Source: a virus. From it: a stretch of DNA of 25,714 bases. The DNA is taken from IMG/VR virus record IMGVR_UViG_3300021519_000064, positions 1 through 25,714 of that record; one strand, 5' to 3'. Under the pieces are notes generated by a model, which was not told the DNA's origin, did not search any database, and saw only the letters and a list, made by a program, of their open reading frames with translations. Numbering within the stretch: the first letter of the stretch is position 1; each line of letters starts with the position of its first letter. The position numbers and the translations under genes were made by a program. Below, piece after piece: positions 2,177 to 25,714 of this stretch.

Positions 2177-2935
2177 ATGAACATGAGCCAAGCGGGCATC
2201 GACGCCCTACTCAAGCCTTTTGAAGGCTGCAAGCTGACGGCCTATCGGTGTCCCGCCAACATCTGCACCATTGGTTACGGCCATACGTCTGCGGCGGGCC
2301 AACCCAGTGTCATGGACGGCATGAAGATCACGCAAAAGCAGGCGGAAGACATTCTTCGCCGCGATCTCGTGAAATACGAGACTTATGTTCACGACATGGT
2401 GCAGCAACCGCTGACCCAACATCAGTTCGATGTTCTCGTGGACTTTGTTTACAATGAAGGCCCGGGAAATCTGAAGACGTCTACCCTGTTGAAAAAGATC
2501 AACGTTGGGCAATTTGACGCCGTGCCTGCCGAGTTGATGAAGTTCACAAAGGGCGGTGGCAAGACACTTCCCGGACTTGTGCGGCGCCGCCATGCGGAAG
2601 GGGCTTGGTGGATGGCGAGCGATCCAGCGGTTGTATCGGCACTCGATGAAGCTCCTACGGCGGACGAACATGAACAACGTGCAATTGCTGATCCTGTACC
2701 TGCGCGAACAATGGCGGACAGCAAGCAAGGTAATGCGGCGCTACTCACGGCAGGTCTTGGAGGGCTGGGCGCAGCAAAGGAAATCGCTTCGCAGGCGCAA
2801 GACGCGTCTGATACGGCAAATCAGCTTATGGGCCTACTTAGCAACACCAACTTCCTTATCATGGCCGCAATCATTGGCCTTGGTGCAGCGATCTGGTTTT
2901 GGCGCAAACAACACATGGAGACACATGGTGTTTAG
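2177..2935 (+). CDS. GH24 (T4/P22-type) lysozyme endolysin with C-terminal membrane anchor
   Basis: This 252-aa protein cleaves the glycan strands of peptidoglycan. Residues 1-150 are a glycoside hydrolase family 24 lysozyme. The catalytic Glu is E16 in KPFEGCKLTAY and is followed by C25 and T31 at the family spacing E-x8-(D/C)-x5-T, just before IGYGHT. QHQFDVLVDFVYNEGPG near residue 86 is the second conserved block and GLVRRRHAE the last. After an Ala-rich linker, about residues 226-242 (FLIMAAIIGLGAAIWFW) form a membrane helix followed by RKQH. There is no N-terminal signal or SAR segment, so anchoring is at the opposite end from classical SAR endolysins. A holin-like protein precedes it and the spanin genes follow. 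Confidence 0.85.
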   Translation: MNMSQAGIDALLKPFEGCKLTAYRCPANICTIGYGHTSAAGQPSVMDGMKITQKQAEDILRRDLVKYETYVHDMVQQPLTQHQFDVLVDFVYNEGPGNLKTSTLLKKINVGQFDAVPAELMKFTKGGGKTLPGLVRRRHAEGAWWMASDPAVVSALDEAPTADEHEQRAIADPVPARTMADSKQGNAALLTAGLGGLGAAKEIASQAQDASDTANQLMGLLSNTNFLIMAAIIGLGAAIWFWRKQHMETHGV

Positions 2936-7671: not shown

Positions 7672-10600
7672 ATGAGTAATCCCCTTTTCGCTTTTCGCCG
7701 GGACGAAGACTTTAACTTTGGCGGCGCAGCTAGGGGATTGCCTCCGGGCGTCCATCTTGAATTTTATGGTGGCGGCAAGGGTGGATCTAGCACCCAGTCT
7801 GTTTCCGTTCCTCCCGAAGTTTTGGCGCGATATAATGCCGTTAATGCTCGCGCCGAGAATGTGGCGCAGACACCGTTTACGCCATATTCCAGTAGTCCAG
7901 AAGCGTTTGTAGCGCCCCTATCATCTTCTCAGCAAGCTGGTATCGGCAACATTAATGCCCTTCAGGGGTCGGCTAATCAGGCTGTTCAGCAAGGCCAAAA
8001 CTTGCAGGGTCAAGGCATTGATACCGCCCGAACTGGTCAGGGTCAGGCCAACGCTATTGACCAAGCGGCCTTGCAGGGCATCAGTCAGGCTCAGCAACAG
8101 GGCACAGCCTACAATCAGGCGGCGGGTCAAAATATTGGACAGGCCATGTCTTCGGCCTCGCCTTACATGCAGCAAATGGCTGGCCTTACGCAGGCTGGCC
8201 TTGGGCAGGGGCAGCAGTATCTTGGGGGCGCAACAGGCTTAACTCAGCAAGCTATTCAGATGGGTCAGCAATACGCTAATCAGGCGCAGCCCTATTACAC
8301 TGGGGCATTACAGGCCGCGCAACCCCTAAATCAGCAGGCGCAGCAATACATGCAGGCTGGTGCGCAAGGTATCGCCCCGCAGGCGCTTGACTACTCCCAA
8401 TATATGAACCCTTACATGAACAATGTGGTTCAGGCCCAGCAGGCCCTTCAGGCGCAGGAAAACGCTCAACAGCGTTCCGCTTTGCAGGGTAAAGCTATTC
8501 AATCTGGCGCATTTGGCGGCGACCGTGCCGGTATTGAGCAGGCCAATCTTGCTCGCCAGCAAAGCCTCGCCAATCAGGCGACAATGGCCAACCTGCTTCA
8601 GTCAGGTTATGGACAGGCGCAAGCCGCCGCCCAGCAGCAGCAGGGCGTTGGTCTCGGTGCTGCTCAGGCAAACCGTGCGGCCCAGCAGGCTGCGGCTCAA
8701 CAGGCTGCTGCGTTTGGTCAGCAACAGTACGCCCAGAACCTTGGCCTCGGTCAGGGCCTCGCTGCCCTTGGACAGCAACAGTACGGTCAGGCGCTTGGCA
8801 CAGGCGCACAGATTGGTCAGCTTGGCCAGCAGGGCTACGCACAGAACCTTGGCGCTGGCGCTCAATTGGGCCAAGTTGGCCAACAACTATATGCACAAAA
8901 TATCGGTCAGGGTCAGGCTATTCAGGGCCTTGGCAATCAGCAGTTTACGCAGGGCCTTCAGGGATCACAGGCGGCTGCTGGAATTGGCCAGAACATCTTC
9001 GGCAATGCTGCCCAGACGGCTGGCATTACGCAGGCTGGCGGCATGAACACCGCCAATCTTGGCCTTCAGAACCAAGCCGCCCAGATTGCCGCAGCTCAGG
9101 CTCAAATGGCGGCTGGTCAGCAGCAGCAGCAGACCGATCAGGCTGGCAAAACGGCGCTCTACAATCAATTCTTGCAGCAGCAGGGCTATCCCTTCCAAGT
9201 TGGGCAGTATCTGGCAAACATCGCCGAGGGTACGGGGGCGTTGTCAGGCTCAACCACAACGGCGGCCCGCACAGGCCAGCGCGGTGGCCGCATGGGCGAC
9301 GGTTACGCGTCTGGCGGGCTTATTCCTGATAGTCAGGGCGGCGCAGTCTATGAGCCGGGTGCATACTATCGCGGCGGCTTAAACACTGGTGGTCGCACTG
9401 GTTTTGCTGCTGGCGGCTGGTCGCAAGATCCTGAAAGCGGCAATTGGTCAAATGGTGCGGAAGAGCCCACAACCATGTCCAATGCTGATTATCAGCAGAT
9501 GTTGGAGCGGCAAAACACTGGGGATACTACGCCTGCAACACCGGCTGTTGATCCGAGCAAGCCCATAGACCCCAAAGATTATTCCAAAATAATCAATCAG
9601 GCTTATGGCCAGATTGGTCGTACTGGGATCGGCACGGGCGCGAACAATATTGATCAGGCGGGCTATGACTATTGGACGAAGCAACTGCAATCAGGCGCAA
9701 TGACGCCTGACCAATTCAATGCTCAGTTCACCGCAAATGCGAAGGCATACAATGCCGCTAACCCGACTTCAGATGTAGCGAAATTGACGCAGCCTGCTAT
9801 ACAATCCAACGCGGATTGGCAGAACGTCAGCGGGTTAAACAAAGACATCGCGACTGCGTTTAAGGACGCCACAGGCAAGGATGTTGATCCAGCTTCTGCC
9901 CGCAAATATCAGGACATGCTGAACGCTGGCATGAGCATGGACCAGATCAAGTACAACATTGGGCATTCTGCGCCAGCCCTGTTGAAGTCTGGCGATGTTG
10001 ACGCTCTCAAGGGTACGCCGCTTACTTACAATGCGGGCAACTTCTCAAGGCCAGTTGCGCCAGTTCAAAACCAGTACGGTGCATATTCTGCGGGTGACTT
10101 TACCCCGGCTGGCGTGGGTTACGGTCAGCAGCAGGGTTATGGCCAGCGGCAGGGTTATGGGCCACAGGGCTATGGCCAGCCGCAGGGCTATGGCAATATG
10201 TCTGCCATGCAGGGCGGCTATGGTGGCTATGGCGGTGGCCTTGGCGGTTATGGCGGCAGCATGATGGGCGGCTACGGCCAGCCCAGCAATTACGGTATGC
10301 CCAACTTCGGCTCGTCTCCCCAGTACGGTGGCGCGCCTGATTATGCTGGCGCTATGCAGTATGGCGGAATGCAGTCCCAGTATGGGATGCCTCAGTTTGG
10401 GCGGCAGCAGAATTATTATCCGCCACAGGCCACCCCACAAGCAACTGGCAAGGGCCCCGCGCCTGTTTCACAGCAGGCTATGCCTGCCCCGACAGCTACT
10501 GGCAAGGGCGCCAGCACCCCGCCACCTACGACTGGTAAGGGTCCATCTACTGGCGGAACTGCCACTGGCTTCAATGCTGGCGGTCGCGTAGGCCGCGCTG

Positions 10601-13600
10601 ACGGTGGGCGGGCAGGATATGCGGGTGGGGGCGATCCCTCCAGCGTATTGCGCGGCCTCGCTGGTCAGTATGATCCCGGCGACCCGCAGGGTCTGGTAGC
10701 AAGGCAAGCAGCTATGTTTGCTGGCGCTCCGGGCGCTGGGGCTGCTGGGTATGTGCCCCCCTCTCAGGGCGGCGCTGGTCAGTACAAGATGCTTCAGCCG
10801 CAGGCAAATATTCTTCCGCAGCAACAGAGCGGTATCAAAGAAGCCATTGGCATGGGGACTAGTATTGCCAGCTTAGGTGAGGCGGGGAGCAAACTTTATA
10901 GTAAATTGAGCGGCCCCAAAACAACTGGCGCACAAGATATTCAGGCATTTTTTAATAAAGGAGATGCCGCCAGCCAAGCCGCAAAAGATATTTCTGGTGG
11001 CCTTAATGTGCCTGACCAATCTACTGGGTTAGGTGGGTTTTTCGGCAATATATTCGGTAGTGGAAATGCTGCTGGTGGCCGCATTGGCTATGCCGCTGGT
11101 GGCATCCCCGGCCTTGCTAACCTGAAACAAGGTTATGCCGATATTCCCGGCGGCACTGGAGAAGACACGCCAATGGGCGATGTCATCAAGCAAGGCACGC
11201 AAACACCTACTGAGTTGGCAAATGAAATGAAAGGCATGTCTTCAGGTGCTGGCGGAACGGGTGGTTCAGGTGGCGGCGGTCTCAGTGGCACTATTGGAAC
11301 AGCGGCTTCTTTGGCCAGCCTTGGAAATTTAGCGTTTAAAGCTGGTAGCTGGATGATGGGCTTGCCCATTTTTGCCGCAGGTGGTCGCGTTGGCAAGGCT
11401 GGCGGTGGTGCGTTGGTTGATCCCAGCAATCCCCAAGATCAGGCAATGGCGAAATCCTTCGACAACCTGCTCCAGCGTTATGATAACAACCCGCTTCTTG
11501 CCGCTGCGGCGATGGACGTTGGCACCAAGGTTGTTGACGCTGCCATTCAGAAGGCCCAGCAGACGGGTGGCGACATCACTGACTTCCTGCCCCGCAGGAC
11601 GCAGGAGTACATGTTTGCCCTGTCCAAGGCCGCTATGGGAGCCCATGAGGCTATCAACCGCCCTGCCCGTGCGACGGGTGGAAGGACGGGGTATGCGACT
11701 AGGGGGTCTACGGATGATGCTCCTGCTGGTTTGGCACCTGCGCCATCTGATGCGATGACGATGGATGATGTCGCTGGTGGGCTTTCGCCTGAGCCTACTG
11801 TGCAGGTGGCTGAATTGAAGAACCCCGATATTCTTCGCGCATTGCGTGGGTCTGAAGGGGCCAATGGCAATCCGGAAGCCAAGAACCCCAATTCAACGGC
11901 TGGTGGTTTGTACCAATACCTTGACAGCACTTGGCAAAAACAAGCGCCCCTTGCCGGTGTGGACATTAAACAATACCCCACAGCTAGGTCTGCCCCTGCG
12001 GAGATCCAGCATCAAGTGGCTGACGCCAATGTCAGCAGCATTTTGGAGCAGAACAAGGGTAATGTTCAGGCGGTTCCTCATCTTTGGTATTCGGGCAACC
12101 CCGAAGGAAAACTGAGCCCTGAAGGTCTTGCGGCTAACAAAGGGTTCACGCAAGAGCAGTATAATCAACGGTTCTTCAACAAGCTTGGGGCTGGTGCGCC
12201 TGAACAGAAACCCGTCCAAGTTGCCACAGCTACCGGCCTTGCGCCCAAGTCCGACGCTGGCCCGTTTGAGACCATTGGCAAGAAGATCCTGCCCGACGCC
12301 GTACCCACAGACAGCAGCTTCTGGGTTCCGCTGATTGCGGGCCTTGGCTCCATGCTGGCTTCTGATAAGTATCGTTTCTCGCAGCGCCTCGGTGAGGGAT
12401 TGGTTGGCGGTGCAGCTGCTTATGGGAAACAGCAAGAATTTCAACAGAAAAACGAACAACAGGCCCAGCAAATAGCGCAGAATGCTGCATTGATGGGGTT
12501 GAAGGGCAAGGAATTTGGGCTCAAGGAGCAAGAATTTTCGTTGACCCAGCGTACTCAAGCCATTCAAATTATGCAGCAGCTTCAGAAGATAAATCTGGGC
12601 CGTCAGATGGCGGGCCAGCCGGAATTAAGTGCAGAGGATTACTTTAAGCAAGTGGGGGCGTCTGATCTGCTTCCTGCGGCCAAAGCGCCTGATGCTGCAC
12701 CTGCTGCTGCTCCGACGGTAACGCCTCCGGCTCCTGCTGGTGGGTTAAACCCTCCTGCGTCCGCTGCTCCTGCTATTAATGGAGCTGCAACTGGCACTCC
12801 TGCTGTTGGGTTGCAGCCTCCTGCTGCTGCTACTACTGGCATATCTGCTACGCCCCATACTATTGCCGCATCCACTCCCGGAATGCCATCTATTAGAGAT
12901 CCGTTCTGGGCTACTGTTGATAGGTCTGATAGCCTTCCTACGATGGAACGAAATTGGAACTTGGCAATGGCTGTAGGCGATACGGCTACCGCTAATACCA
13001 TCATGCAAAGGATGGATACTATTAAGAAAACCGGCGAGGTAATGGTTAATGGGGAAGTAACCCATATCCCCGGTTATCTTGCCGCTCAAGCTGCTGCTGC
13101 TGCTGCAAAGGAAACAGCGACCAAACAAGCTGGATTGCCATTTATAGAGCGTATTGGTCCCGGTGGTGAAAAATACATTCCTGCTTTAGCCGATCAAGCT
13201 AAGGGAACAACGCCCAATATTCCTCCTGCTTCTACCGAAGCTGGAAAGGTTGAGCCTGCTGGTGCTGCTCCCCAAAAGGCTGTAATCGACCAGAAAACTG
13301 GGCAGGTTAATGGTTCAATTCCGGCTCCTCCTCCGGGTGGCGGGTATCCTTTGTCTAAACAGCCCGGCGCTACGGGCATGACACAAGCTGCTCAGAGATT
13401 GGCAAAGAATGATGAGCAGTTTGAAAAGGATTTTATGGAAAAAACACCTACAATGGATGCAGCCATTGAGCGTCTTGACCAAATGACTAATTCTTTCAAA
13501 ATGATCCATTCTGGAGCAATGGAAGACAAATTGAAGGGGTATGCTGCTTTGGCCGCGTCTTATGGCGATCAGAAGCTTGCCGCTAGGATCATGGGTGGCC

Positions 13601-14124
13601 AAGTTGGAGCGGTTGCAGCCGCTCAATTGATTGACAAAAACAAAGTCAATCTTGTTCTCGACACATTGAAAGCTGCAACCCCTCGTTTTGCTCAATCTGA
13701 ATTCCTCAAATTGAGTGATGTTGGTTCTCCTGACATCGCGATTGAGCCCCAAGCCAATCATGGCATGATTTCGACGAACAAAGGCACTATGGAATGGTCT
13801 CGCCAATTCACAAGAGATTGGGAAAAGGCGAAAGATGCTGGATGGCAGAGCCCAAGTGCGTTTTTCACTGAGTGGTCGCAGCTCAACCCACTTTCAACTT
13901 TTCAGGAAAGCGCCAGACGCCGGATGGGAACATTTGGGGGCATGGATCTCCCGCCCATCAATGAATGGACAGAAGGGGCGGTCTATCATGTTCCTAAAGG
14001 GTTGAAGGGGCCTCAAGCTGAACAAATGGGAAGGGCTGGCCTCAAGGGAGGGGATACATTCCGCTTTTTAGGGGATAAGATAGAACGGGTTAAACCATCT
14101 GACCTCTTCAAATATGGGCAGTGA
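7672..14124 (+). CDS. Giant internal virion-type protein with transglycosylase-like domain
   Basis: This 2150-aa protein is a mosaic of low-complexity and folded parts. Residues about 40-520 are rich in Gln, Ala and Gly and include SGAFGGDRAG (278-287), a motif I associate with alphaproteobacterial phage virion proteins. Residues 349-456 hold six copies of an 18-residue unit, and 633-695 resemble DUF4214 (GYDYWTKQLQSGAMTPDQF). A prion-like Gly/Gln/Tyr stretch fills 816-919 and ATGKG repeats about 923-962. A lysozyme/transglycosylase-like domain lies near 1384-1505, with candidate catalytic E1395 and GGLYQYLDSTW. A Gln-rich coiled coil at 1585-1647 leads to a Pro/Ala linker and a helical C terminus. 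Motifs of the type GGRxGxAxGG recur five times. It probably is ejected with DNA and opens the cell wall, as T7 gp16 does; this is inferred. Confidence 0.7.
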   Translation: MSNPLFAFRRDEDFNFGGAARGLPPGVHLEFYGGGKGGSSTQSVSVPPEVLARYNAVNARAENVAQTPFTPYSSSPEAFVAPLSSSQQAGIGNINALQGSANQAVQQGQNLQGQGIDTARTGQGQANAIDQAALQGISQAQQQGTAYNQAAGQNIGQAMSSASPYMQQMAGLTQAGLGQGQQYLGGATGLTQQAIQMGQQYANQAQPYYTGALQAAQPLNQQAQQYMQAGAQGIAPQALDYSQYMNPYMNNVVQAQQALQAQENAQQRSALQGKAIQSGAFGGDRAGIEQANLARQQSLANQATMANLLQSGYGQAQAAAQQQQGVGLGAAQANRAAQQAAAQQAAAFGQQQYAQNLGLGQGLAALGQQQYGQALGTGAQIGQLGQQGYAQNLGAGAQLGQVGQQLYAQNIGQGQAIQGLGNQQFTQGLQGSQAAAGIGQNIFGNAAQTAGITQAGGMNTANLGLQNQAAQIAAAQAQMAAGQQQQQTDQAGKTALYNQFLQQQGYPFQVGQYLANIAEGTGALSGSTTTAARTGQRGGRMGDGYASGGLIPDSQGGAVYEPGAYYRGGLNTGGRTGFAAGGWSQDPESGNWSNGAEEPTTMSNADYQQMLERQNTGDTTPATPAVDPSKPIDPKDYSKIINQAYGQIGRTGIGTGANNIDQAGYDYWTKQLQSGAMTPDQFNAQFTANAKAYNAANPTSDVAKLTQPAIQSNADWQNVSGLNKDIATAFKDATGKDVDPASARKYQDMLNAGMSMDQIKYNIGHSAPALLKSGDVDALKGTPLTYNAGNFSRPVAPVQNQYGAYSAGDFTPAGVGYGQQQGYGQRQGYGPQGYGQPQGYGNMSAMQGGYGGYGGGLGGYGGSMMGGYGQPSNYGMPNFGSSPQYGGAPDYAGAMQYGGMQSQYGMPQFGRQQNYYPPQATPQATGKGPAPVSQQAMPAPTATGKGASTPPPTTGKGPSTGGTATGFNAGGRVGRADGGRAGYAGGGDPSSVLRGLAGQYDPGDPQGLVARQAAMFAGAPGAGAAGYVPPSQGGAGQYKMLQPQANILPQQQSGIKEAIGMGTSIASLGEAGSKLYSKLSGPKTTGAQDIQAFFNKGDAASQAAKDISGGLNVPDQSTGLGGFFGNIFGSGNAAGGRIGYAAGGIPGLANLKQGYADIPGGTGEDTPMGDVIKQGTQTPTELANEMKGMSSGAGGTGGSGGGGLSGTIGTAASLASLGNLAFKAGSWMMGLPIFAAGGRVGKAGGGALVDPSNPQDQAMAKSFDNLLQRYDNNPLLAAAAMDVGTKVVDAAIQKAQQTGGDITDFLPRRTQEYMFALSKAAMGAHEAINRPARATGGRTGYATRGSTDDAPAGLAPAPSDAMTMDDVAGGLSPEPTVQVAELKNPDILRALRGSEGANGNPEAKNPNSTAGGLYQYLDSTWQKQAPLAGVDIKQYPTARSAPAEIQHQVADANVSSILEQNKGNVQAVPHLWYSGNPEGKLSPEGLAANKGFTQEQYNQRFFNKLGAGAPEQKPVQVATATGLAPKSDAGPFETIGKKILPDAVPTDSSFWVPLIAGLGSMLASDKYRFSQRLGEGLVGGAAAYGKQQEFQQKNEQQAQQIAQNAALMGLKGKEFGLKEQEFSLTQRTQAIQIMQQLQKINLGRQMAGQPELSAEDYFKQVGASDLLPAAKAPDAAPAAAPTVTPPAPAGGLNPPASAAPAINGAATGTPAVGLQPPAAATTGISATPHTIAASTPGMPSIRDPFWATVDRSDSLPTMERNWNLAMAVGDTATANTIMQRMDTIKKTGEVMVNGEVTHIPGYLAAQAAAAAAKETATKQAGLPFIERIGPGGEKYIPALADQAKGTTPNIPPASTEAGKVEPAGAAPQKAVIDQKTGQVNGSIPAPPPGGGYPLSKQPGATGMTQAAQRLAKNDEQFEKDFMEKTPTMDAAIERLDQMTNSFKMIHSGAMEDKLKGYAALAASYGDQKLAARIMGGQVGAVAAAQLIDKNKVNLVLDTLKAATPRFAQSEFLKLSDVGSPDIAIEPQANHGMISTNKGTMEWSRQFTRDWEKAKDAGWQSPSAFFTEWSQLNPLSTFQESARRRMGTFGGMDLPPINEWTEGAVYHVPKGLKGPQAEQMGRAGLKGGDTFRFLGDKIERVKPSDLFKYGQ
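8716..9039 (+). repeat. 54-bp tandem repeat coding an 18-residue unit, about six copies
   Basis: Units begin at 8716, 8770, 8824, 8878, 8932 and 8986, each exactly 54 bp long and in frame with the giant gene (residues 349-456). The protein pattern is GQQxYxQxLGxGxxIxxL, with the fifth and sixth copies decayed. Eighteen residues are five turns of an alpha-helix, so hydrophobic positions stay on one face. The DNA repeats are diverged, which suggests an old expansion under protein-level selection. Confidence 0.85.
10117..10428 (+). repeat. Low-complexity Gly/Gln/Tyr-rich coding segment
   Basis: Within the giant gene, residues about 816-919 consist almost only of Gly, Gln, Tyr, Pro, Met and Ser, with repeated QGYG and GGYG units and almost no charged residues. 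The DNA is an imperfect repeat of ggytatggc-type units. The composition is that of prion-like or phase-separating domains. Confidence 0.85.
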
Positions 14125-14126
14125 TC

Positions 14127-17100
14127 ATGGCTGGATTTGAGATTGATCAAGATTTTCTCAAGGCGTTTGGCGGGGCTCCAGAGCCGTCAACTACCAAGCC
14201 CGGATCAGCCAATGATTTGAAGGGTGCTTTTGCGGAAGGATCTCAGGCTGCTGAACCTTCGCTGGCATCTGGCGCTGTTGCTCCTTTTGTTGGGTTCAAC
14301 AAAGCCTTGATGACGCTTGGGAAACCCGTTGATTGGATTAGTTCGGGCATATCCGCCGTGACGGGGTTGCCGGAAGCTGAAGCCCCATTTGGCGGGTCAG
14401 AGTCAATTCGTCGTGGGTTGTCGTCAATTGGCGCTGATCCAACAAAGATGGAGCCAAGATCAACGGTTGAGAAATATCTTCAAGCGGGTGGCGAAGGTAT
14501 TGGCGGCGCGTTTACGATGGGTGCTGTTGGTCCTACGCTCGCCACTAAAGTTGCCCCCTATTTTCCCAATTTAGCCAAAACCATTGAGATGGCGACTGCT
14601 TTTCGGGCCCCTGTGGGTGCAAGTAGGCCAGCGGCTTTGGCTCCTGTTGCTGAAATGGCGGTTCCTGCTTTTACGGGGGGGATGGGTGCGGAAGCTGCTT
14701 CGGATCTTGTGCCGGAGTCATGGAAGGGCATTGCCGGATTGGGCGGTGGCCTCGCAGGCGGCGCAGTTGGTGCATTAGGGGTTGCTGGCTCAAAAGCTAT
14801 CCCAACAATGGCTCGGGCTGGTATGGACTACTTTGCTCCTCTTACAGAGGGCGGTCGTCAGCGTTTGGCGCAGGAAAAGGTTGTGGCAGGGATGGGAAGC
14901 CCGCTGCGCACAAGGGAGATCCTCACGGAGGAAACCCCCGATTTGGTTCCCGGCTCCAAGCCGACGTTGTTTCAAAAGACAGGCGATCAGGCGACCGGCC
15001 AGCTAGAGCGTCAGGCGGAAAGTTTGTCTCCCGCGCCATTCATTGAACGCCGTGGTGAGCAAAATGCCGCCCGAATTGAAGCCTTGAATAAGGCGCAACC
15101 TTCTGGGGCGCCAGAGGAGCTTCCTAATTTTCTGCGCAGCAAGTTGGCAGATATTGAAGAAGGGACGACCAAAAGCCTTGAAGGGGCTACTGCACGAGCT
15201 GCGGAGGAAACCCGCTTGCTTGGTGGGACGCAGACCCCTGAAGCCTATGGTCAAACACTGCGTCAGTCTACTGAAGATGCCAGAAAAGCGGCTCGTACAG
15301 CGAGATCCGACCTTTACAAGGCGATTGATCCTGACAACAAACTGAACGCAATTACGACCCCTATCCGTGAAATGGCAGATAACGTGCTTGGTGGCATGAC
15401 TGAGCATGATGCGCCTTTGTCTGGTGAGCCCAAAGCTATCTTTGAACTTGCTCAGAAGATGGGGGATGTGCTGCCGTTCAAAAACCTTGACGCCTTTGAC
15501 AAGCGGATTACTGCGGCTATATCGGCAGAGCGTCGTGCTGTTGGAGAAAGCCCGATTTTGATGCGTCTTTCTCAATTAAAGGGCGCTGTTGTCAATTCAA
15601 TCGTTAACAGCGCGGAAAACCAACACAATTGGGAGCAGGCTGCTGTTGCTGCTGGCAAAATGGCTCCTGAAGATACGCTTGCAAGCCGGATGAATGCTTA
15701 TGCGGAGAAAGCGGGTGAAGCGCCGGTTGTTACGGGCAAGCCAACTGCTTTTCAGGCTGATTTAGAAAACGCGCCTGTTTACCATCCTAATGGGCAGATC
15801 AACGTCAAATATCAAGTGGTTGATGCGCCAGACCTGATTACTTCCCATGATAAGGATTTCAGGCTTCGCTCGGATTATCCGCAGGAGCTTCAGCCACGCA
15901 ATCGCGCTGCCGGTCCTGCACAAGATCAGGTCAACGAGATTGCCTCCAAACTTCAGCCTGAGCGACTTGGGCCTTCTCCTGAAGTCAACAGCGGGGCTCC
16001 TATCATTGGACCGGACAACATTGTTGAAAGCGGCAATGGCCGCACCTTAGCCATCCAGAAGGCATATGATGCTGGTCGCGGAAACGAATACCGGGCATGG
16101 TTGGAATCGCAAGGCTACGACACCACTGGCATGAAACAGCCAATGCTTGTTGGCCGTCGCCTTACGGATATGACGCCAGATGAGCGTGTCAAGTTTGCTC
16201 AGTCGGCTAATACGCCTACGGGCCTTGGCATGGGTGCGGTGGAACAAGCTGCCTCTGATGCTCGTTTATTGGGGGATATTTCTGCCCCGATTTCCCCCGG
16301 CCCGCTGTCATCTGCTGCCAATCAGGATTTTGTCCGCGCCGTCATGGAGCGTTTGCCTGCCAGTGAGCGCCGTAATTTTCTTAATGACAAGGGCGAACTT
16401 TCTAGCGGCGGAGAGAAGCGACTTCAGGCTGCCCTATCTAGTAGTGCGTATGACGATCCTGCATTCATTCGCCGGGCGTTTGAAAGCACTGACAACAATA
16501 TCAAGGGCATTGCAGATGCTATGACCAGCGTTGCTGGTCCTTGGTCTAAGATGCGTCAGGCGGCTGCAAATGGCGACATTGCCCCTGAGCATGACATCAC
16601 AGACAACCTCATGGATGCGGTTCGCATGGTTATGCGGGCGCGCGATGAAGGTAAGCCGCTTGGGTTCTATCTGAAACAATCAGACATGTTTAATTCGCCT
16701 ATTGAGCAGATGGCGAAAGACATCATCATGCCAAATGGCGAGAAAGTTGCCAGCAGTAAGGCTATCTCTGCGTCTTTGCGTAATTACGCTGAAGAGGCGC
16801 AGAAAAATTTGGCTGGTGAAAGGCTTTTTGGCGAAACTTTGAAGCCAGAAGAAGTGCTTCGCACAAGCCTTGGAAAAGCTGAGAAAGAAGCAATTGAGCC
16901 GACTATTGCTGCCGAAGCCAAGCCCACACGCAAAAACCTTGAGCCTAATATGACGCCAGAAGCTGTTGAAGCTTCCAAGGCGGCTAAAGCCGCTCATGCC
17001 GAATATGCCAAGACTTATAAGCAGGGCACGGTCAACGATGTTTTGCGCACAACCGGATTTAGCGGCCAATATCGGACGCCCAATGCTACTGTGGTAGGAA

Positions 17101-18446
17101 AGTTTTTCCCTGCTGGCGCCAACGGCGAAGAAGCTGCTATGGCTTTTAGGAAAGCTGTTGGCGACGATGCCAAAGCTATTTCAACCATGCAGGATTACAT
17201 TTCGTGGTCTGCCCGGCGCGCTGCTGAACGCGAAGATGGGTCTCTTGACCCCAAAAAGTTTGCTACATGGCGCAAAACCCATGACAGCGCATTGCGCGCG
17301 TTTCCTGAGTTAGCAGGAAGATTTGATAACGCACTTGATGCGTCCAAGCGTATGGCGGAATTGGCTGTTGCTCGCAAAGGGGCGGTTGATGATTTTCAGC
17401 GTGGCGCTATAGGGCGTGTGCTGAAGGTTAGCGAGCCTGAAGACGTAGTAAAGACGGTTGGTTCCATATTCAACCAGACCAATGCCGTTGGGCAGATGAA
17501 GGCATTGGCTGACGCCACGGCTGGATCTCAATATGGGGGCATTAGCGATGGCCGCGCGGGATTGCGCCGGGCTATTGCTGAGTATGTCAACAACAAGTTC
17601 ATCAGCCCGGTTGAAAGTGCAACGTCTGGACAGGGCACAATCAAGTCTGCCAGCTTTCAAACGTTTTTGAAAAACAATGAAGCTGCTTTGACTGCAAAGG
17701 ATAAGGCAGGCCGGTCAATATTTTCTCCAAAAGAGCTGGAAGCTTGGAAGGCAATTGGAGAAGACTTAAATCGTGCAAACCGCTCTATTTCTGGGAATGC
17801 TTTGCCGGGACGTTCAACAACTGCTCAAGACATTTTGCCTTCGTTGAAGCAGGCAGAACAATCCAATCTGGGATTGCTTGCCAAAATGGCGATTGGAATG
17901 GGTGCTGGGTATGAAACACGGGGCACCATTGGTGCTGCTGGTGGCGTGTTGGGCGCTATTGGGAACCATATCATTGGCAATGCCAGAAACGCTGGTTTGA
18001 CCAAAGTTCAGGATATGGTTGTGGAAATCCTGCTTCATCCTGAGCTTGCATTGCCTGCTCTTGAACGGGTTTCCTCTTCATCTAAGCCAGCAGGCAATAC
18101 TTTAGCTGCGGCTTTTAAGAGGCTACCTGTTTATGGCCTAAATGGGGCTGGTGCTGGAAAACAAGAAGATGCGAATGATTATGCAAAAATATATGGCGAA
18201 AAAAATGACAATACGCCAGAACCTCGTCCGTTAACTATCCACGGCCCTGCTAATCGCTTTGCCGGTGGTCGCATAGGTCGCGCCTCTGGCGGCAAGGTCG
18301 CCCACAACATTCAGCCGCTTGTGAGCCGCCTCATGGGGCTTGCGGAGCAGGCCAAGAAGTCTACAGACAGTAGCACCAAGCCGTTGCTGGATGCCCCTGA
18401 CGCTAGTATCGTCAAGGCCCTCCGTGTCGCCAATCAAGCCATCTAG
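14127..18446 (+). CDS. Giant virion-type protein with DdrB/ParB-like domain
   Basis: The product is about 1439 aa from ATG 14127; a GTG at 14121 overlapping the previous stop is the alternative start. Residues 1-110 are Ala/Gly-rich and about 195-225 form a Gly-zipper-like hydrophobic stretch (GLGGGLAGGAVGALGVAG). Residues about 260-520 are helical. Residues about 550-895 match the DdrB-like ParB superfamily domain of phage polyvalent proteins: YQVVDAPDLITSH, ELQPRNRA, then GAPIIGPDNIVESGNGRTLA with the key Glu-Ser-Gly-Asn-Gly-Arg at 634-639. A second Gly-zipper hydrophobic stretch follows near 1255-1300, then GGRIGRASGGKV (about 1380), shared in style with the upstream giant, and a C-terminal helix ending ASIVKALRVANQAI. 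It is probably packaged and ejected; a DNA-binding or nucleotide-binding role is inferred from the ParB-like fold. Confidence 0.65.
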   Translation: MAGFEIDQDFLKAFGGAPEPSTTKPGSANDLKGAFAEGSQAAEPSLASGAVAPFVGFNKALMTLGKPVDWISSGISAVTGLPEAEAPFGGSESIRRGLSSIGADPTKMEPRSTVEKYLQAGGEGIGGAFTMGAVGPTLATKVAPYFPNLAKTIEMATAFRAPVGASRPAALAPVAEMAVPAFTGGMGAEAASDLVPESWKGIAGLGGGLAGGAVGALGVAGSKAIPTMARAGMDYFAPLTEGGRQRLAQEKVVAGMGSPLRTREILTEETPDLVPGSKPTLFQKTGDQATGQLERQAESLSPAPFIERRGEQNAARIEALNKAQPSGAPEELPNFLRSKLADIEEGTTKSLEGATARAAEETRLLGGTQTPEAYGQTLRQSTEDARKAARTARSDLYKAIDPDNKLNAITTPIREMADNVLGGMTEHDAPLSGEPKAIFELAQKMGDVLPFKNLDAFDKRITAAISAERRAVGESPILMRLSQLKGAVVNSIVNSAENQHNWEQAAVAAGKMAPEDTLASRMNAYAEKAGEAPVVTGKPTAFQADLENAPVYHPNGQINVKYQVVDAPDLITSHDKDFRLRSDYPQELQPRNRAAGPAQDQVNEIASKLQPERLGPSPEVNSGAPIIGPDNIVESGNGRTLAIQKAYDAGRGNEYRAWLESQGYDTTGMKQPMLVGRRLTDMTPDERVKFAQSANTPTGLGMGAVEQAASDARLLGDISAPISPGPLSSAANQDFVRAVMERLPASERRNFLNDKGELSSGGEKRLQAALSSSAYDDPAFIRRAFESTDNNIKGIADAMTSVAGPWSKMRQAAANGDIAPEHDITDNLMDAVRMVMRARDEGKPLGFYLKQSDMFNSPIEQMAKDIIMPNGEKVASSKAISASLRNYAEEAQKNLAGERLFGETLKPEEVLRTSLGKAEKEAIEPTIAAEAKPTRKNLEPNMTPEAVEASKAAKAAHAEYAKTYKQGTVNDVLRTTGFSGQYRTPNATVVGKFFPAGANGEEAAMAFRKAVGDDAKAISTMQDYISWSARRAAEREDGSLDPKKFATWRKTHDSALRAFPELAGRFDNALDASKRMAELAVARKGAVDDFQRGAIGRVLKVSEPEDVVKTVGSIFNQTNAVGQMKALADATAGSQYGGISDGRAGLRRAIAEYVNNKFISPVESATSGQGTIKSASFQTFLKNNEAALTAKDKAGRSIFSPKELEAWKAIGEDLNRANRSISGNALPGRSTTAQDILPSLKQAEQSNLGLLAKMAIGMGAGYETRGTIGAAGGVLGAIGNHIIGNARNAGLTKVQDMVVEILLHPELALPALERVSSSSKPAGNTLAAAFKRLPVYGLNGAGAGKQEDANDYAKIYGEKNDNTPEPRPLTIHGPANRFAGGRIGRASGGKVAHNIQPLVSRLMGLAEQAKKSTDSSTKPLLDAPDASIVKALRVANQAI

Positions 18447-20842: not shown

Positions 20843-20941
20843 TTATCCTCCCACCACAACACAGATGGTGAAGATTGCCGCGATGGCTATGCCAGTGGCG
20901 ACAATATTGGCGGCTTCATATGCTAGATCCAAGGCTTTCAT
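20843..20941 (-). CDS. 32-aa single-span membrane microprotein
   Basis: ATG 20941 to TAA 20843 encodes 32 residues: a short MKALDLAYEAA start, then IVATGIAIAAIFTICVVVGG, one hydrophobic helix. A good GGAGATACCTG site precedes the ATG. The start lies 26 bp inside the end of the DnaA-like gene, and the stop comes one base before the next start codon, so the frame fills exactly what would otherwise be a gap. Function is unknown; candidates are a membrane stress toxin, a superinfection-exclusion peptide or a membrane anchor for a neighbour. Confidence 0.55.
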   Translation of the reverse strand: MKALDLAYEAANIVATGIAIAAIFTICVVVGG

Positions 20942-21419
20942 CAGGTATCTCCTTTTTGATGCAATCACTATGCACCGCAATTTGTTTAGGAACCGTTAAC
21001 AGCGGCAAATTATATCGCTTTGCATGTTGGCGAACGGCATGGAGGATTGTTGTGTGGTCCCGCCTACCCAGTATTATCCCCACCATAGGCAGGGAAAGGT
21101 TGAGCCTTTTCTTGATTTCGTATGCAGCTTCCTGACGGGCCTTTGTGTATTTCCATTTCCGACTTTGCCCCGTTATGTCTTTCGCCGTCATCTCATGCTT
21201 GATAGCAATTTCCTTCAAAATGGCCTGCGCAGGCGTCAAGGGGATAAACAAGCGCGGCATCTTTGGCTTTTCAGGTTCTGGTTCAAGCTCAGGCTCAGGC
21301 TCAGGCTCAGGGGCCAGTAGCATAACCGGCTGAATGATGATTGGTTTCTGCGGGGGCGTGTATCTCAAACGCTCCCGGACGGCCTTATAGTGCGCTTGCA
21401 TTTCTTCAATCGTTTGCAT
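20916..21419 (-). CDS. DnaA domain IV-like DNA-binding protein
   Basis: The 167-aa product carries the DNA-binding end of the replication initiator DnaA without its AAA+ ATPase. Residues about 62-137 read TPAQAILKEIAIKHEMTAKD, ITGQSRKWKYTKARQEA and LSLPMVGIILG, then the signature RRDHTTILHAVRQHAKRY (119-136). In DnaA this signature contacts the DnaA box. Upstream lies a charged N-terminal helix and a Pro-Glu spacer at 37-51 (PEPEPEPELEPEPEK). A stand-alone domain IV could occupy DnaA boxes at the host origin, or boxes on the phage, without ATP-driven assembly. It overlaps neighbours on both sides (14 bp and 26 bp). GGAGGAAAAAA precedes the ATG. Confidence 0.82.
   Translation of the reverse strand: MQTIEEMQAHYKAVRERLRYTPPQKPIIIQPVMLLAPEPEPEPELEPEPEKPKMPRLFIPLTPAQAILKEIAIKHEMTAKDITGQSRKWKYTKARQEAAYEIKKRLNLSLPMVGIILGRRDHTTILHAVRQHAKRYNLPLLTVPKQIAVHSDCIKKEIPDESLGSSI
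21287..21310. repeat. Hexanucleotide tandem repeat GCTCAG x4
   Basis: Four perfect GCTCAG units lie in the DnaA-like gene, with degenerate copies on the 5' side. They encode the Pro-Glu spacer between the N-terminal helix and the DNA-binding domain. Gain or loss of a unit keeps the frame and would change spacer length by two residues, so the site is a likely length-variable locus. Confidence 0.85.
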
Positions 21420-23566: not shown

Positions 23567-23842
23567 TCATTGTTGGTTATCTTTCCGCAAAAACTGATCT
23601 CCGGTCATTGGCTTCACTTTTCCTACATATCGCTGATTTATCGCCGTTATGCCTGCGGAATAGTAATGTGGAGAAAATTTGGGGCTTTGTTGATCTTTGT
23701 AAAATTCTTCTACAACGACAAAGTTATCCTCCTCAAGTTGAAGAACAAACTCTTGCAAACTTGTAGCAGGATGTTCCGCCATGATTTGATGGATGGCGCT
23801 TCCAGACCTTGCTGGCATGTTCATTGTAATCAAGAATTTCAC
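23567..23842 (-). CDS. Small conserved phage protein, paralogue of the 76-aa protein at 20182-20412
   Basis: The 91-aa product begins MKFLITMNMPARSGSAIHQI, contains LQEFVLQLEEDNFVVVEEFY and ends INQRYVGKVKPM followed by a basic tail. It shares all three blocks with the gene at 20182-20412. The pattern belongs to a small family I associate with alphaproteobacterial phages; no function is known. It is the first gene after the UUCG-loop terminator. Its upstream GGAGAAGTAAA is the same ribosome-binding sequence that precedes the ssDNA-binding-like gene, which suggests duplicated leader pieces as well as duplicated genes. Confidence 0.62.
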   Translation of the reverse strand: MKFLITMNMPARSGSAIHQIMAEHPATSLQEFVLQLEEDNFVVVEEFYKDQQSPKFSPHYYSAGITAINQRYVGKVKPMTGDQFLRKDNQQ

Positions 23843-23889: not shown

Positions 23890-24576
23890 TCAACCAAAGT
23901 CTTCATCGTCGGCTACTTGGCGGGCGACAGGTGCCGCCGCCCGTGTTGACCCGGTAGAAGGCGGAGCCCGCTTAACCGGAATTTCCTCTTCATCGTCTAA
24001 TGAAGCAGGCGCAGATGCTGATGCAGTACGCGGTTGATATTGAAGATCATCGGGACGCTTAACCCAGCCGACAATCTCAAATGACGGGGCATAGTTAGTC
24101 TGCTTTTTTACACCGTCGCCCGTGACAATTGGGATAGGCTCATTCAAAACAACCACAGGCACTTTGCCTGCATTGTTTTTTGCCCCTGCCAAATAATCAT
24201 CGTGCAACTTATCAAGGCCACGCGAGAAACTTGCTGCATGGCTACTCAATTCGCGAATGTCGCCGCCGTTTTCTTTCGAAAGCTTCAGGACAATGCGAAA
24301 ACCCTTGCGGTGCTTGTCGCTAGGTTTTGCTGGCAACACTTCATTGTTGTGGACCAGAATCATTGACGGAGCGCCACCAGTGTCAAAGTCCATCCAGCCG
24401 TGTTCAATGTTCTCAACGTCCATCACCGCTTTAAAGCTGCGTGTAATGTCCACGTCAGTGTTTTCGCCATTGTCACGATCACGGCGGGTAATGCGTCCGG
24501 CCTTAGCGTTAAACTTCACAAAACCCATGAAGCTCTTGCTGTTTCCGGCGCTGTCATAGTTGATACCAAGTGCCAT
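23890..24576 (-). CDS. Putative ssDNA-binding / recombination-associated protein
   Basis: The 228-aa product starts MALGINYDSAGNSKSFMGFV. A strand-rich middle (TRSFKAVMDVENIEHGWMDF, then KGFRIVLKLSKENGG) and a second beta section (YAPSFEIVGWVKRPDD, about residues 165-180) follow. It ends with an Ala/Pro-rich linker and an acidic tip, ADDEDFG. A beta-rich core plus a short acidic tail ending in an aromatic residue and Gly is the layout of single-stranded-DNA-binding proteins, whose tail recruits partners. The nuclease gene directly upstream fits that role. The fold is inferred; no signature proves it. GGAGAAGTAAA precedes the ATG and a UUCG terminator follows the stop. Confidence 0.5.
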   Translation of the reverse strand: MALGINYDSAGNSKSFMGFVKFNAKAGRITRRDRDNGENTDVDITRSFKAVMDVENIEHGWMDFDTGGAPSMILVHNNEVLPAKPSDKHRKGFRIVLKLSKENGGDIRELSSHAASFSRGLDKLHDDYLAGAKNNAGKVPVVVLNEPIPIVTGDGVKKQTNYAPSFEIVGWVKRPDDLQYQPRTASASAPASLDDEEEIPVKRAPPSTGSTRAAAPVARQVADDEDFG

Positions 24577-24636
24577 TTTACTTCTCCATTGTGAGGCTAT
24601 CTGGCCAGCCTCTCGCCTTCGCCCATTCGGGCAGAA

Positions 24637-25386
24637 CTAAAGCTTCCACGTTTCAAATGCCGCCTGTCTGGCAAGCGGATCTGAAAAATAAAAGCTGTCA
24701 ACATCTGGCACCACAAGGGATGCCAGTTCATGCGGATCTTTGCTTATCGAAAGAAACCGCTGGATTGTAAGCGCGATTGTGCCCAGTGCTTCAACATGCT
24801 GGCGAATATTTTCCAGCTTGTAGACTGCGACTTTTTTGGGTGTGACATAACATAAACGCGCATCGAGATTTCCACTCCTCGCAGCGCAATATAATGCAAC
24901 CTGCCGGGCGTGATTGGTTGAGATTTTTGACGGCAAAGCATGTGACGTTTTAAGGTCGATAAGGATGCCATGATCTGCCCACTCCATATCGTAAAACCCA
25001 ATTAAGGGCACAAGCAAGCCATCAACCTTATACTCAATCTTTCCTTGGAAAGATGTGGGTTGCCCATAAGAGCGCAGCTCAGACAATCCCATTTTCACAA
25101 AGTCGGCAATTGCGCCTTCTTCCTTTTCTTTGCGCGGATCTCCGCTCATGACCGTCAATGATGCAAATTTCTTTTTTGCAACGTCAACCGCCTCTTGATC
25201 AGTAGATCCGCTCAGGCCAGCGACAACCCCATCCTCAACAGATGTCCCTCTGTGTGCAGCGCACCCAACAGGCGAACGTCTCTTTAACAGCTTCTCCAAC
25301 ACAAACATGGCCGGAGAGCCGATAAACAGGTTGCACGATGAAGGGCTGAGATGTTCGAGACCGTGGGTCTCAAAAGGATTGTCCAT
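24637..25386 (-). CDS. PD-(D/E)XK nuclease of the RecB/Cas4 type
   Basis: The 249-aa product has the motifs of RecB-family nucleases in order: AAHRGTSVEDG (H45, E51), GFYDMEW (D133), ILIDLKT (D144, K146) and RQVALYCAA (Q162, Y166 of the QxxxY motif). D133, D144 and K146 are the expected metal-binding and catalytic residues. The enzyme would degrade or trim DNA ends, most likely as the exonuclease partner of the ssDNA-binding-like protein in phage recombination, end processing or host DNA breakdown. I see none of the four Cys of the iron-sulfur cluster of true Cas4/AddB, so it is a cluster-free member. It is the first gene of the leftward early operon. Confidence 0.75.
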   Translation of the reverse strand: MDNPFETHGLEHLSPSSCNLFIGSPAMFVLEKLLKRRSPVGCAAHRGTSVEDGVVAGLSGSTDQEAVDVAKKKFASLTVMSGDPRKEKEEGAIADFVKMGLSELRSYGQPTSFQGKIEYKVDGLLVPLIGFYDMEWADHGILIDLKTSHALPSKISTNHARQVALYCAARSGNLDARLCYVTPKKVAVYKLENIRQHVEALGTIALTIQRFLSISKDPHELASLVVPDVDSFYFSDPLARQAAFETWKL

Positions 25387-25499
25387 ATGTCACTCGATAA
25401 GGTTTGATTTGGTGTTAATAAACTTAGGCCAAAAAAATATTTTGTCAATTTTTATTTTCCCTGTTGACAGGTTGGACATTTTGTCCCTACCTTAGTGAC
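25387..25499. promoter_or_regulatory. Symmetric divergent early promoter / operator region
   Basis: Two TTGACA boxes lie back to back: on the - strand at 25448-25443 and on the + strand at 25464-25469, 15 bp apart. The leftward one is followed after 16 bp by TAAGTT, the rightward one after 18 bp by TACCTT (weak -10s). A palindrome GGACA-TTT-TGTCC (25474-25486) fills the rightward spacer. ATGTCACT (25387-25394) and AGTGACAT (25494-25501) form an 8-bp inverted repeat at the two start codons. Repeated TGTC/GACA half-sites suggest binding by the adjacent helix-turn-helix protein. Confidence 0.6.
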
Positions 25500-25700
25500 A
25501 TGATGAACAAGCGAAGCATTGATTGGGAATTGGTTGAACGCCTCGCCGAAGGGCTTGGCGTTGATTACTGGGCGCGTCGGAAATGGGTCCAACGCAAACA
25601 GGTTCCCCATAAATGGCGCTTCGCAATGATCGCCGCATCCCGTGGCGCAATTAAGCCTGAAGACTTCATCAAAATGGATCGGAGCCGCCGTGCAATATGA
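25500..25700 (+). CDS. Small helix-turn-helix protein (Cro/CI-like repressor candidate)
   Basis: The 66-aa product reads MNKRSIDWELVERLAEGLGV, then DYWARRKWVQRKQVPHKWRF and IKPEDFIKMDRSRRAI. Its Ser/Lys/Arg-rich helices fit a minimal helix-turn-helix of the Cro/YdaS type: helix 2 about 11-18, turn, recognition helix about 21-32. It is transcribed away from the early operon, from the region with operator-like palindromes, so it probably regulates the divergent promoters. ATG 25500 overlaps the inverted repeat and ATG 25503 is one codon later; upstream in-frame ATG 25464 is inside the -35 box and is rejected. Confidence 0.6.
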   Translation: MMNKRSIDWELVERLAEGLGVDYWARRKWVQRKQVPHKWRFAMIAASRGAIKPEDFIKMDRSRRAI

Positions 25701-25714
25701 ATGTATTCTTGGCC
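25690..25714 (+). CDS. Start of a further gene at the window edge (5' fragment)
   Basis: GTG 25690 has GGAG 5 bp upstream and reads MQYECILG before the window ends; it overlaps the helix-turn-helix gene by 11 bp. An alternative ATG at 25697 (MNVFLA) overlaps the stop in ATGA style but its ribosome-binding site would be 12 bp away. Eight codons cannot identify a protein; a strand ending in ILG is compatible with many enzymes, RuvC-like resolvases among them. Confidence 0.35.

Follow-up and report, generated by a model that had tools for sequence, protein, structure and literature searches.

A conserved operator palindrome beside a Cro-like gene points to a probable orphan autorepressor in uncultured phages

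We analyzed the divergent promoter region near the right-hand end of a 25,714-nucleotide stretch of viral DNA (IMG/VR record IMGVR_UViG_3300021519_000064, positions 1 to 25,714; hereafter, the window), where a nuclease-superfamily gene is read leftward and a small helix-turn-helix (HTH) gene rightward. Sequence comparison argues with good confidence that the HTH gene encodes an orphan Cro-type autorepressor of the rightward operon, whose influence on the leftward gene, if any, would be indirect. Comparison with relatives shows that an operator palindrome and the protein co-occur, that the operator keeps a nearly fixed position, that the protein is homologous to Cro, and that two divergent promoters are present. 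Regulation at this locus thus appears mostly real, but of a general kind already known, and its layout appears to be kept in dozens of related phages.

A preliminary description had depicted this region as a nest of symmetric elements with shared half-sites, and direct reading of the letters located every element that it named. Two TTGACA -35 boxes, at 25464-25469 on the forward strand and 25448-25443 on the reverse strand, point outward, 15 bp apart, and this back-to-back arrangement recurs in relatives. The palindrome GGACATTTTGTCC, present as a single exact copy in the whole window, occupies 25474-25486 within the 18-bp spacer of the rightward promoter, upstream of the -10 box TACCTT (25488-25493). 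Both start codons are touched by an outer 8-bp inverted repeat, whose left arm, ATGTCACT (25387-25394), lies directly outside the leftward start codon (CAT, 25384-25386), and whose right arm, AGTGACAT (25494-25501), extends over the first two letters (AT) of the rightward start codon, the ATG at 25500. TGTC (25388, 25443, 25482) and GACA (25466, 25475, 25497) together occur six times in 115 bp, twice each in the -35 boxes, the palindrome and the outer repeat; shuffled sequences contained 0.78 copies on average, and none of 5000 shuffles contained six or more.

Shuffling this one 115-bp sequence alone gave unremarkable values both for the outer repeat (P=0.16) and for the 5+3+5 palindrome (P=0.18), and it is conservation across relatives that raises the palindrome above chance. 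The outer repeat is missing in all four near relatives aligned to the window. At chance level and unconserved, it was rejected as a functional element; both arms are judged coincidental, and the view of the repeat as part of the design falls away. Its left arm overlaps a weak leftward GAGTGA that, by eye, resembles a ribosome site.

Relatives of the HTH gene were collected with an alignment of ten HTH proteins, which returned 72 loci (73 with the window), some on contigs shared with the nuclease set described below. A scan with the single protein had yielded 27 stretches, none confirmed, and the alignment scan of genome contigs yielded 21, again none confirmed. The site GACAn3TGTC lies within 260 bp upstream of the HTH gene in 46 of the 73 loci; grouped at 70% identity, 14 of 24 protein clusters have this strict site within that distance and ten lack it. 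The upstream regions, 18.98 kb in all, contain 77 such sites, while the remaining 390.6 kb of these loci contain 3; shuffled upstream regions contained 0.38 on average and 3 at most. The position is nearly fixed: 39 of the 46 strict-site loci place the beginning of GACA 11 nt downstream of the first T of TTGAC, the others either having no preceding TTGAC (6/46) or having it at 143 nt (1/46). When the half-degenerate form GGAn5TGTCC was allowed, a site was present within 260 bp in 65 of 73 loci, and a TTGAC-spaced site was found within 700 bp upstream in 68 of 73, among them loci whose operon begins with a gene other than the HTH gene. Three of the five loci failing the 700-bp test (L122, L137, L144) carry the palindrome with another -35 box or spacing; in L094 the site, seen by eye, is at the nuclease gap, out of the 700-bp reach, and L140 is the HTH locus in which no operator was found. 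Given that site and gene co-occur and that the spacing to the -35 box hardly varies, it is very likely that the palindrome is the binding site of the adjacent HTH protein, as had been proposed. In L019 the operator reads TGACAAATTGTCA; the first rightward gene there encodes a GapR-like DNA-binding protein (PF10073, 2.6e-29) and the HTH gene comes second, an order also seen by eye in L023-L025, L028 and L067.

The first leftward gene of the window (24637-25386, reverse strand) belongs to the PD-(D/E)XK nuclease superfamily (PF12705, PDDEXK_1, E=9e-7), and a protein scan found 73 related virus loci. Four without a gene start were dropped from the gap analysis, and six with gaps shorter than 250 bp were dropped from the Fisher table. 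The remaining 63 loci, whose gaps span the full 250 bp, comprise 17 with both site and HTH gene, one with the site only, two with the HTH gene only and 43 with neither, an association with a Fisher value of 2.9e-12 when kinship is ignored. The site-only locus is L017. L008 and L020 are the HTH-only loci, with the HTH gene 2-3 kb to the right; the site of the L020 operon is farther in, as seen in L098 from the same contig, and the gap of L008 keeps a half-site by eye, with the HTH gene about 3 kb away. Conversely, 19 HTH loci have the site with no nuclease relative detected in the locus, so the site follows the HTH gene and not the nuclease. Across five aligned gaps, the chief conserved block consists of the TTGAC, TTGGACA and TGTCC letters. 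The spacer in the nuclease gaps of L006-L010 and L013-L016 retains the right half-site only (TTCCAAAATGTC), and the next gene is not the HTH gene. At L118, the nuclease's divergent place is occupied by a gene (2610-2864, reverse strand) for a small protein beginning MKFL.TM.MP..., which by eye resembles the product of window positions 23567-23842 (reverse strand).

The motif itself also occurs apart from the gene family. A scan with TTGACN5GGACANNNTGTCC returned at least 119 stretches with at least 125 matches. Among the 125 matches listed, 26 lie 0-800 bp before a same-strand HTH gene of the window family, 11 lie in the opposite orientation at 438-1688 bp from one, and 88 have no family HTH in the fetched locus; the motif alone therefore does not name the protein. 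Loci such as L148, L152, L187 and L246 show TTGAC-GGACAn3TGTCC in a promoter-like setting with no family HTH found in the locus, and other repressors may use the same palindrome at loci of this type. A DNA similarity search of phage records with window positions 24000-25714 found nothing. Protein searches of phage records gave one distant match for the nuclease (27% identity) and two for the HTH protein at E 0.01, both records being Synechococcus virus S-ESS1.

The rightward gene (25500-25700, forward strand) encodes 66 amino acids; its ATG at 25500 was taken as the start from the relatives, while the list of open reading frames begins at a TTG inside the -35 box. Profile comparisons place the protein near phage Cro proteins at modest scores. 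The window protein itself matched P22_Cro with E 0.022 and 15 bits, not reaching the Pfam cut-off of 30.2, YdaS at 0.09, below the cut-off, and carph-isopro (NF046037) at 0.0018 and 18.4 bits, not reaching the cut-off of 38. Across 37 family members, P22_Cro matched 14 and carph-isopro 33 at E<=0.1. A profile of the 37 members compared with the PDB matched an XPH1 chain (1.5e-6), Xfaso 1 Cro (3bd1, 1.2e-5), N15 Cro (2hin, 0.0055) and P22 Cro (1rzs, 0.056); as the same comparison also brings up HIV protease chains (from 0.004) and thyroid receptor chains (from 0.65), only the value of 1.2e-5 is firm among those for Cro. An AlphaFold2 model has four helices and a pLDDT of 83.9. The fold search with this model gave nothing at E<=0.001, and its best matches, although weak, were Cro chains (Foldseek E 0.72; Z 5.2, rmsd 2.6 over 57 residues). 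Taken as a family, these HTH proteins resemble prophage Cro proteins in their profile, and comparative genomics places an operator over the family's own early promoter.

To describe the promoters, 14 of the 68 TTGAC-spaced sites were removed as duplicates, leaving 54 distinct promoters, 48 with five letters and 6 with six between TTGAC and the site. When 41 distinct rightward promoters were aligned on TTGAC, an alignment in which the site letters are fixed by selection, the -10 places with a 17-bp spacer held A in 35 of 41 and T in 36 of 41. The window and its nearest relative, L001, apparently have an 18-bp spacer, shifted by one from the 17 bp of most aligned promoters. On the leftward side, 48 of 54 distinct promoters have GTCAA, corresponding to the -35 box at 25443-25448 (reverse strand), no more than 60 bp ahead of the rightward TTGAC, and a profile of 37 promoters gives a weaker TA...T signal; the putative leftward -10 box of the window is TAAGTT (25421-25426, reverse strand), with a 16-bp spacer. 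Both -10 boxes are weak, and a strict sigma-70 scan reported no promoter here; the assignment of the boxes in the window draws on their conservation in relatives. The corresponding transcript starts would lie at about 25500 for the rightward and about 25414 for the leftward promoter, about 86 bp apart. Since the rightward start would fall on the ATG and no ribosome-binding stretch precedes it by eye, this message is probably leaderless, beginning at the ATG or one or two bases from it.

Its place between the -35 box and the -10 box leads us to read the site as an element of autorepression. A dimer of the 66-aa Cro-type protein would bind GGACA-TTT-TGTCC in its own promoter and block RNA polymerase, thereby lowering the amount of the protein itself and of the products of the genes behind it. 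The back-to-back nuclease promoter, with no operator of its own in this phage, would be favoured only indirectly, through removal of polymerase from the neighbouring promoter; polymerases about 86 bp apart would crowd one another mainly via upstream contacts. What stands behind the HTH gene can be read in L001, where a RuvC-like protein (by eye, no Pfam match) is followed by a primase-polymerase/AAA protein, and the repressor therefore most likely limits the expression of replication genes. Elsewhere in the window, positions 14121-18446 encode a 1441-aa protein with a ddrB-like ParB-superfamily domain (PF18763, 2.4e-33), positions 7672-14124 a 2150-aa repetitive glycine/glutamine-rich protein with no Pfam match above the cut-off, and positions 20916-21419 (reverse strand) a 167-aa protein with a DnaA C-terminal DNA-binding domain (PF08299, 5.4e-15).

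The preliminary description went further and proposed a two-way switch driven by the HTH protein. In its full form, with the protein on the palindrome directly toggling both promoters and the outer repeat contributing to the design, this reading is unlikely for the window, even though it fits the two -35 boxes standing back to back at 15 bp and what is seen in relatives. On the leftward side, 31 of 54 distinct promoters carry a second operator; its distance from the leftward GTCAA is 0-2 nt in 29 of them and 9 nt in the other two. The window and L001, L002, L004 and L005 have the rightward operator only and no leftward one; moreover, the window's operator is about 60-72 bp away from the predicted leftward start, on its upstream side, and the outer repeat has already been set aside as unconserved. 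Control of the leftward promoter in the window phage would hence be indirect at most, because the second operator is missing. A symmetric switch, as judged by these comparisons, would belong to the two-operator relatives and not to the window; the earlier proposal is about half right, the HTH protein being the likely driver. The two -35 boxes are as little as 6 bp and as much as 34 bp apart in the 48 promoters where both were found; as the operators stay near their own -35 boxes despite this variation, each probably acts on its own promoter and not via a fixed dimer-dimer contact. Where present, the second operator is centred about 42-45 bp upstream of the predicted leftward start, a place comparable to that from which lambda CI at OR2 activates PRM. 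By this analogy, one small protein might, in the two-operator relatives, repress one operon and directly activate or restrain the other.

As far as can be read from the record, autorepression as proposed here does not amount to a switch between lysis and lysogeny, because the rightward genes in L001 are of the replication type and no CI-like partner was found. We searched the window record and 16 relatives, hand-picked and mostly long contigs (among them L033, with no detected HTH gene), bearing in mind that the records may be fragments. A CI profile, positive in two temperate-looking control records of which one is itself a profile member, found no match in the window record or in 15 of these 16 longer relatives, and neither did the tyrosine integrase PF00589; both were present in the remaining relative, G009 (the contig of L144). 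The serine recombinase PF00239 was absent in all 17 records. Peptidase_S24, tried as another CI marker, matched none of 22 records, temperate-looking ones included, and was discarded as uninformative in favour of the CI profile.

In temperate-looking records, this operator stands next to a CI-like gene, which occupies the place that the nuclease takes in the window. The virus records L182, L194, L210, L233 and L193 have a CI-like HTH gene in the region, and two of these proteins compared with Pfam matched HTH_31 and HTH_3 below the cut-offs; a tyrosine integrase was present in three of six temperate-looking virus records. A scan of genomes with the CI profile gave 23 loci, four of them with a divergent HTH gene of the family: Sphingopyxis bauzanensis and metagenome-assembled genomes (MAGs) of a Rhizobium sp., a betaproteobacterium and a Methylocystis. 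The gap between the CI-like and HTH genes contains the exact site in Sphingopyxis bauzanensis only and near-matching versions, by eye, in the other three; the Rhizobium and betaproteobacterial loci have an exact GACAn3TGTC as well, farther away. In four Sphingomonas loci, exact palindromes flank the CI-like gene on both sides and no family HTH gene was detected. The remaining 15 loci (14 from Flavobacterium/Flavobacteriales and one alphaproteobacterial MAG) have neither HTH gene nor site, except for a distant site in L278. From the organisms of these loci we would guess, and no more, that the window phage has an alphaproteobacterial host.

These loci lend some substance to another reading, in which the palindrome is the target of a CI-like repressor of a resident prophage or of the host and the phage protein merely competes with it or escapes it. 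Exact GGACAn3TGTCC-type sites do stand by CI-like genes in Sphingopyxis bauzanensis and the four Sphingomonas records, but the site is found with the HTH gene of the phage itself, for which self-control is the simplest account, and we regard the outside repressor as improbable. Less probable still is a MerR-type activator that would bind the spacer and turn the rightward promoter on. The operator does fill that spacer, and the -10 box is weak enough that no promoter passes the strict scan; on the other side, most of the 41 aligned promoters have a spacer of normal length, 17 bp, and the homology is to Cro, MerR_1 (0.015) and MerR (0.02) each matching just one of the 37 family members. A chance arrangement of common promoter letters, compatible with both single-sequence P values, is accepted for the outer repeat and, for the palindrome, is contradicted to the point of being hardly credible by the excess of upstream sites over shuffles and by their nearly fixed position.

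Beyond autorepression, we tentatively raise a broader possibility, which we hold to be rather doubtful, that a Cro-operator module has lost its CI partner and now serves as a built-in timer of replication operons in apparently non-lysogenic phages, the window being a reduced, one-operator version. The more immediate outcome is a specific and testable operator-repressor pair common to many uncultured phages; it suggests that control of the Cro type, known from the lysogeny switch, can be kept up where that switch is missing. The temperate-looking relatives with the same operator also raise the question of whether the CI-like repressor of a resident prophage could silence such phages.

Among known systems, lambda is comparable in promoter geometry. 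Its PR and PRM promoters are also back to back, with about 80-90 bp between starts, against a predicted distance of about 86 bp in the window; in contrast, no competition between CI and Cro is seen in the window, where the second promoter serves a nuclease. The window also differs from lambda-like immunity regions in that no CI-like gene or integrase was found in its record, and in having one operator against three in lambda. With the Cro proteins of P22, N15 and Xfaso 1, the window protein shares a small single HTH domain, its place as first gene of a rightward operon and an operator over its own promoter, whereas its divergent gene encodes a nuclease instead of a CI repressor. Literature searches for Cro-like proteins in virulent phages and for 'carph-isopro' found nothing, one for an orphan Cro, operator and divergent promoter in a lytic phage gave nothing relevant by title among the papers listed, and the six exact palindromes that turned up stood in three papers, all on SsoII/Ecl18kI. 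The cro mRNA of PY54 is described as leaderless, as proposed for the rightward message of the window, and PY54 Cro reportedly suppresses cI and not its own synthesis (PMC4488713). The site of the SsoII/Ecl18kI systems, AGGACAAATTGTCCT, has the same GGACA/TGTCC arms around another 3-letter centre and likewise stands between two genes, in their promoter region (PMC3978073, PMC3695355). The nearest documented behaviour is found here: the HTH domains of M.SsoII and M.Ecl18kI compete with polymerase on the palindrome at their own promoter, repress their own gene and indirectly raise the other (PMC3978073, PMC3695355), whereas the HTH part of M.Ecl18kI by itself binds roughly tenfold more weakly and has no control over transcription (PMC3695355). 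In this last respect, and in the reported behaviour of PY54 Cro, the known cases differ from the reading proposed for the window. Unlike these regulators, in which the HTH is part of a DNA methyltransferase, the 66-aa protein has no fusion to a cytosine methyltransferase, and the likeness considered here is one of site and layout. Further counterparts are L182, L194, L210, L233 and L263 (Sphingopyxis bauzanensis), which share the HTH family and a GGACAn3TGTCC site five letters past TTGAC, and differ from the window in having a divergent CI-like HTH gene with a mirror operator beyond.
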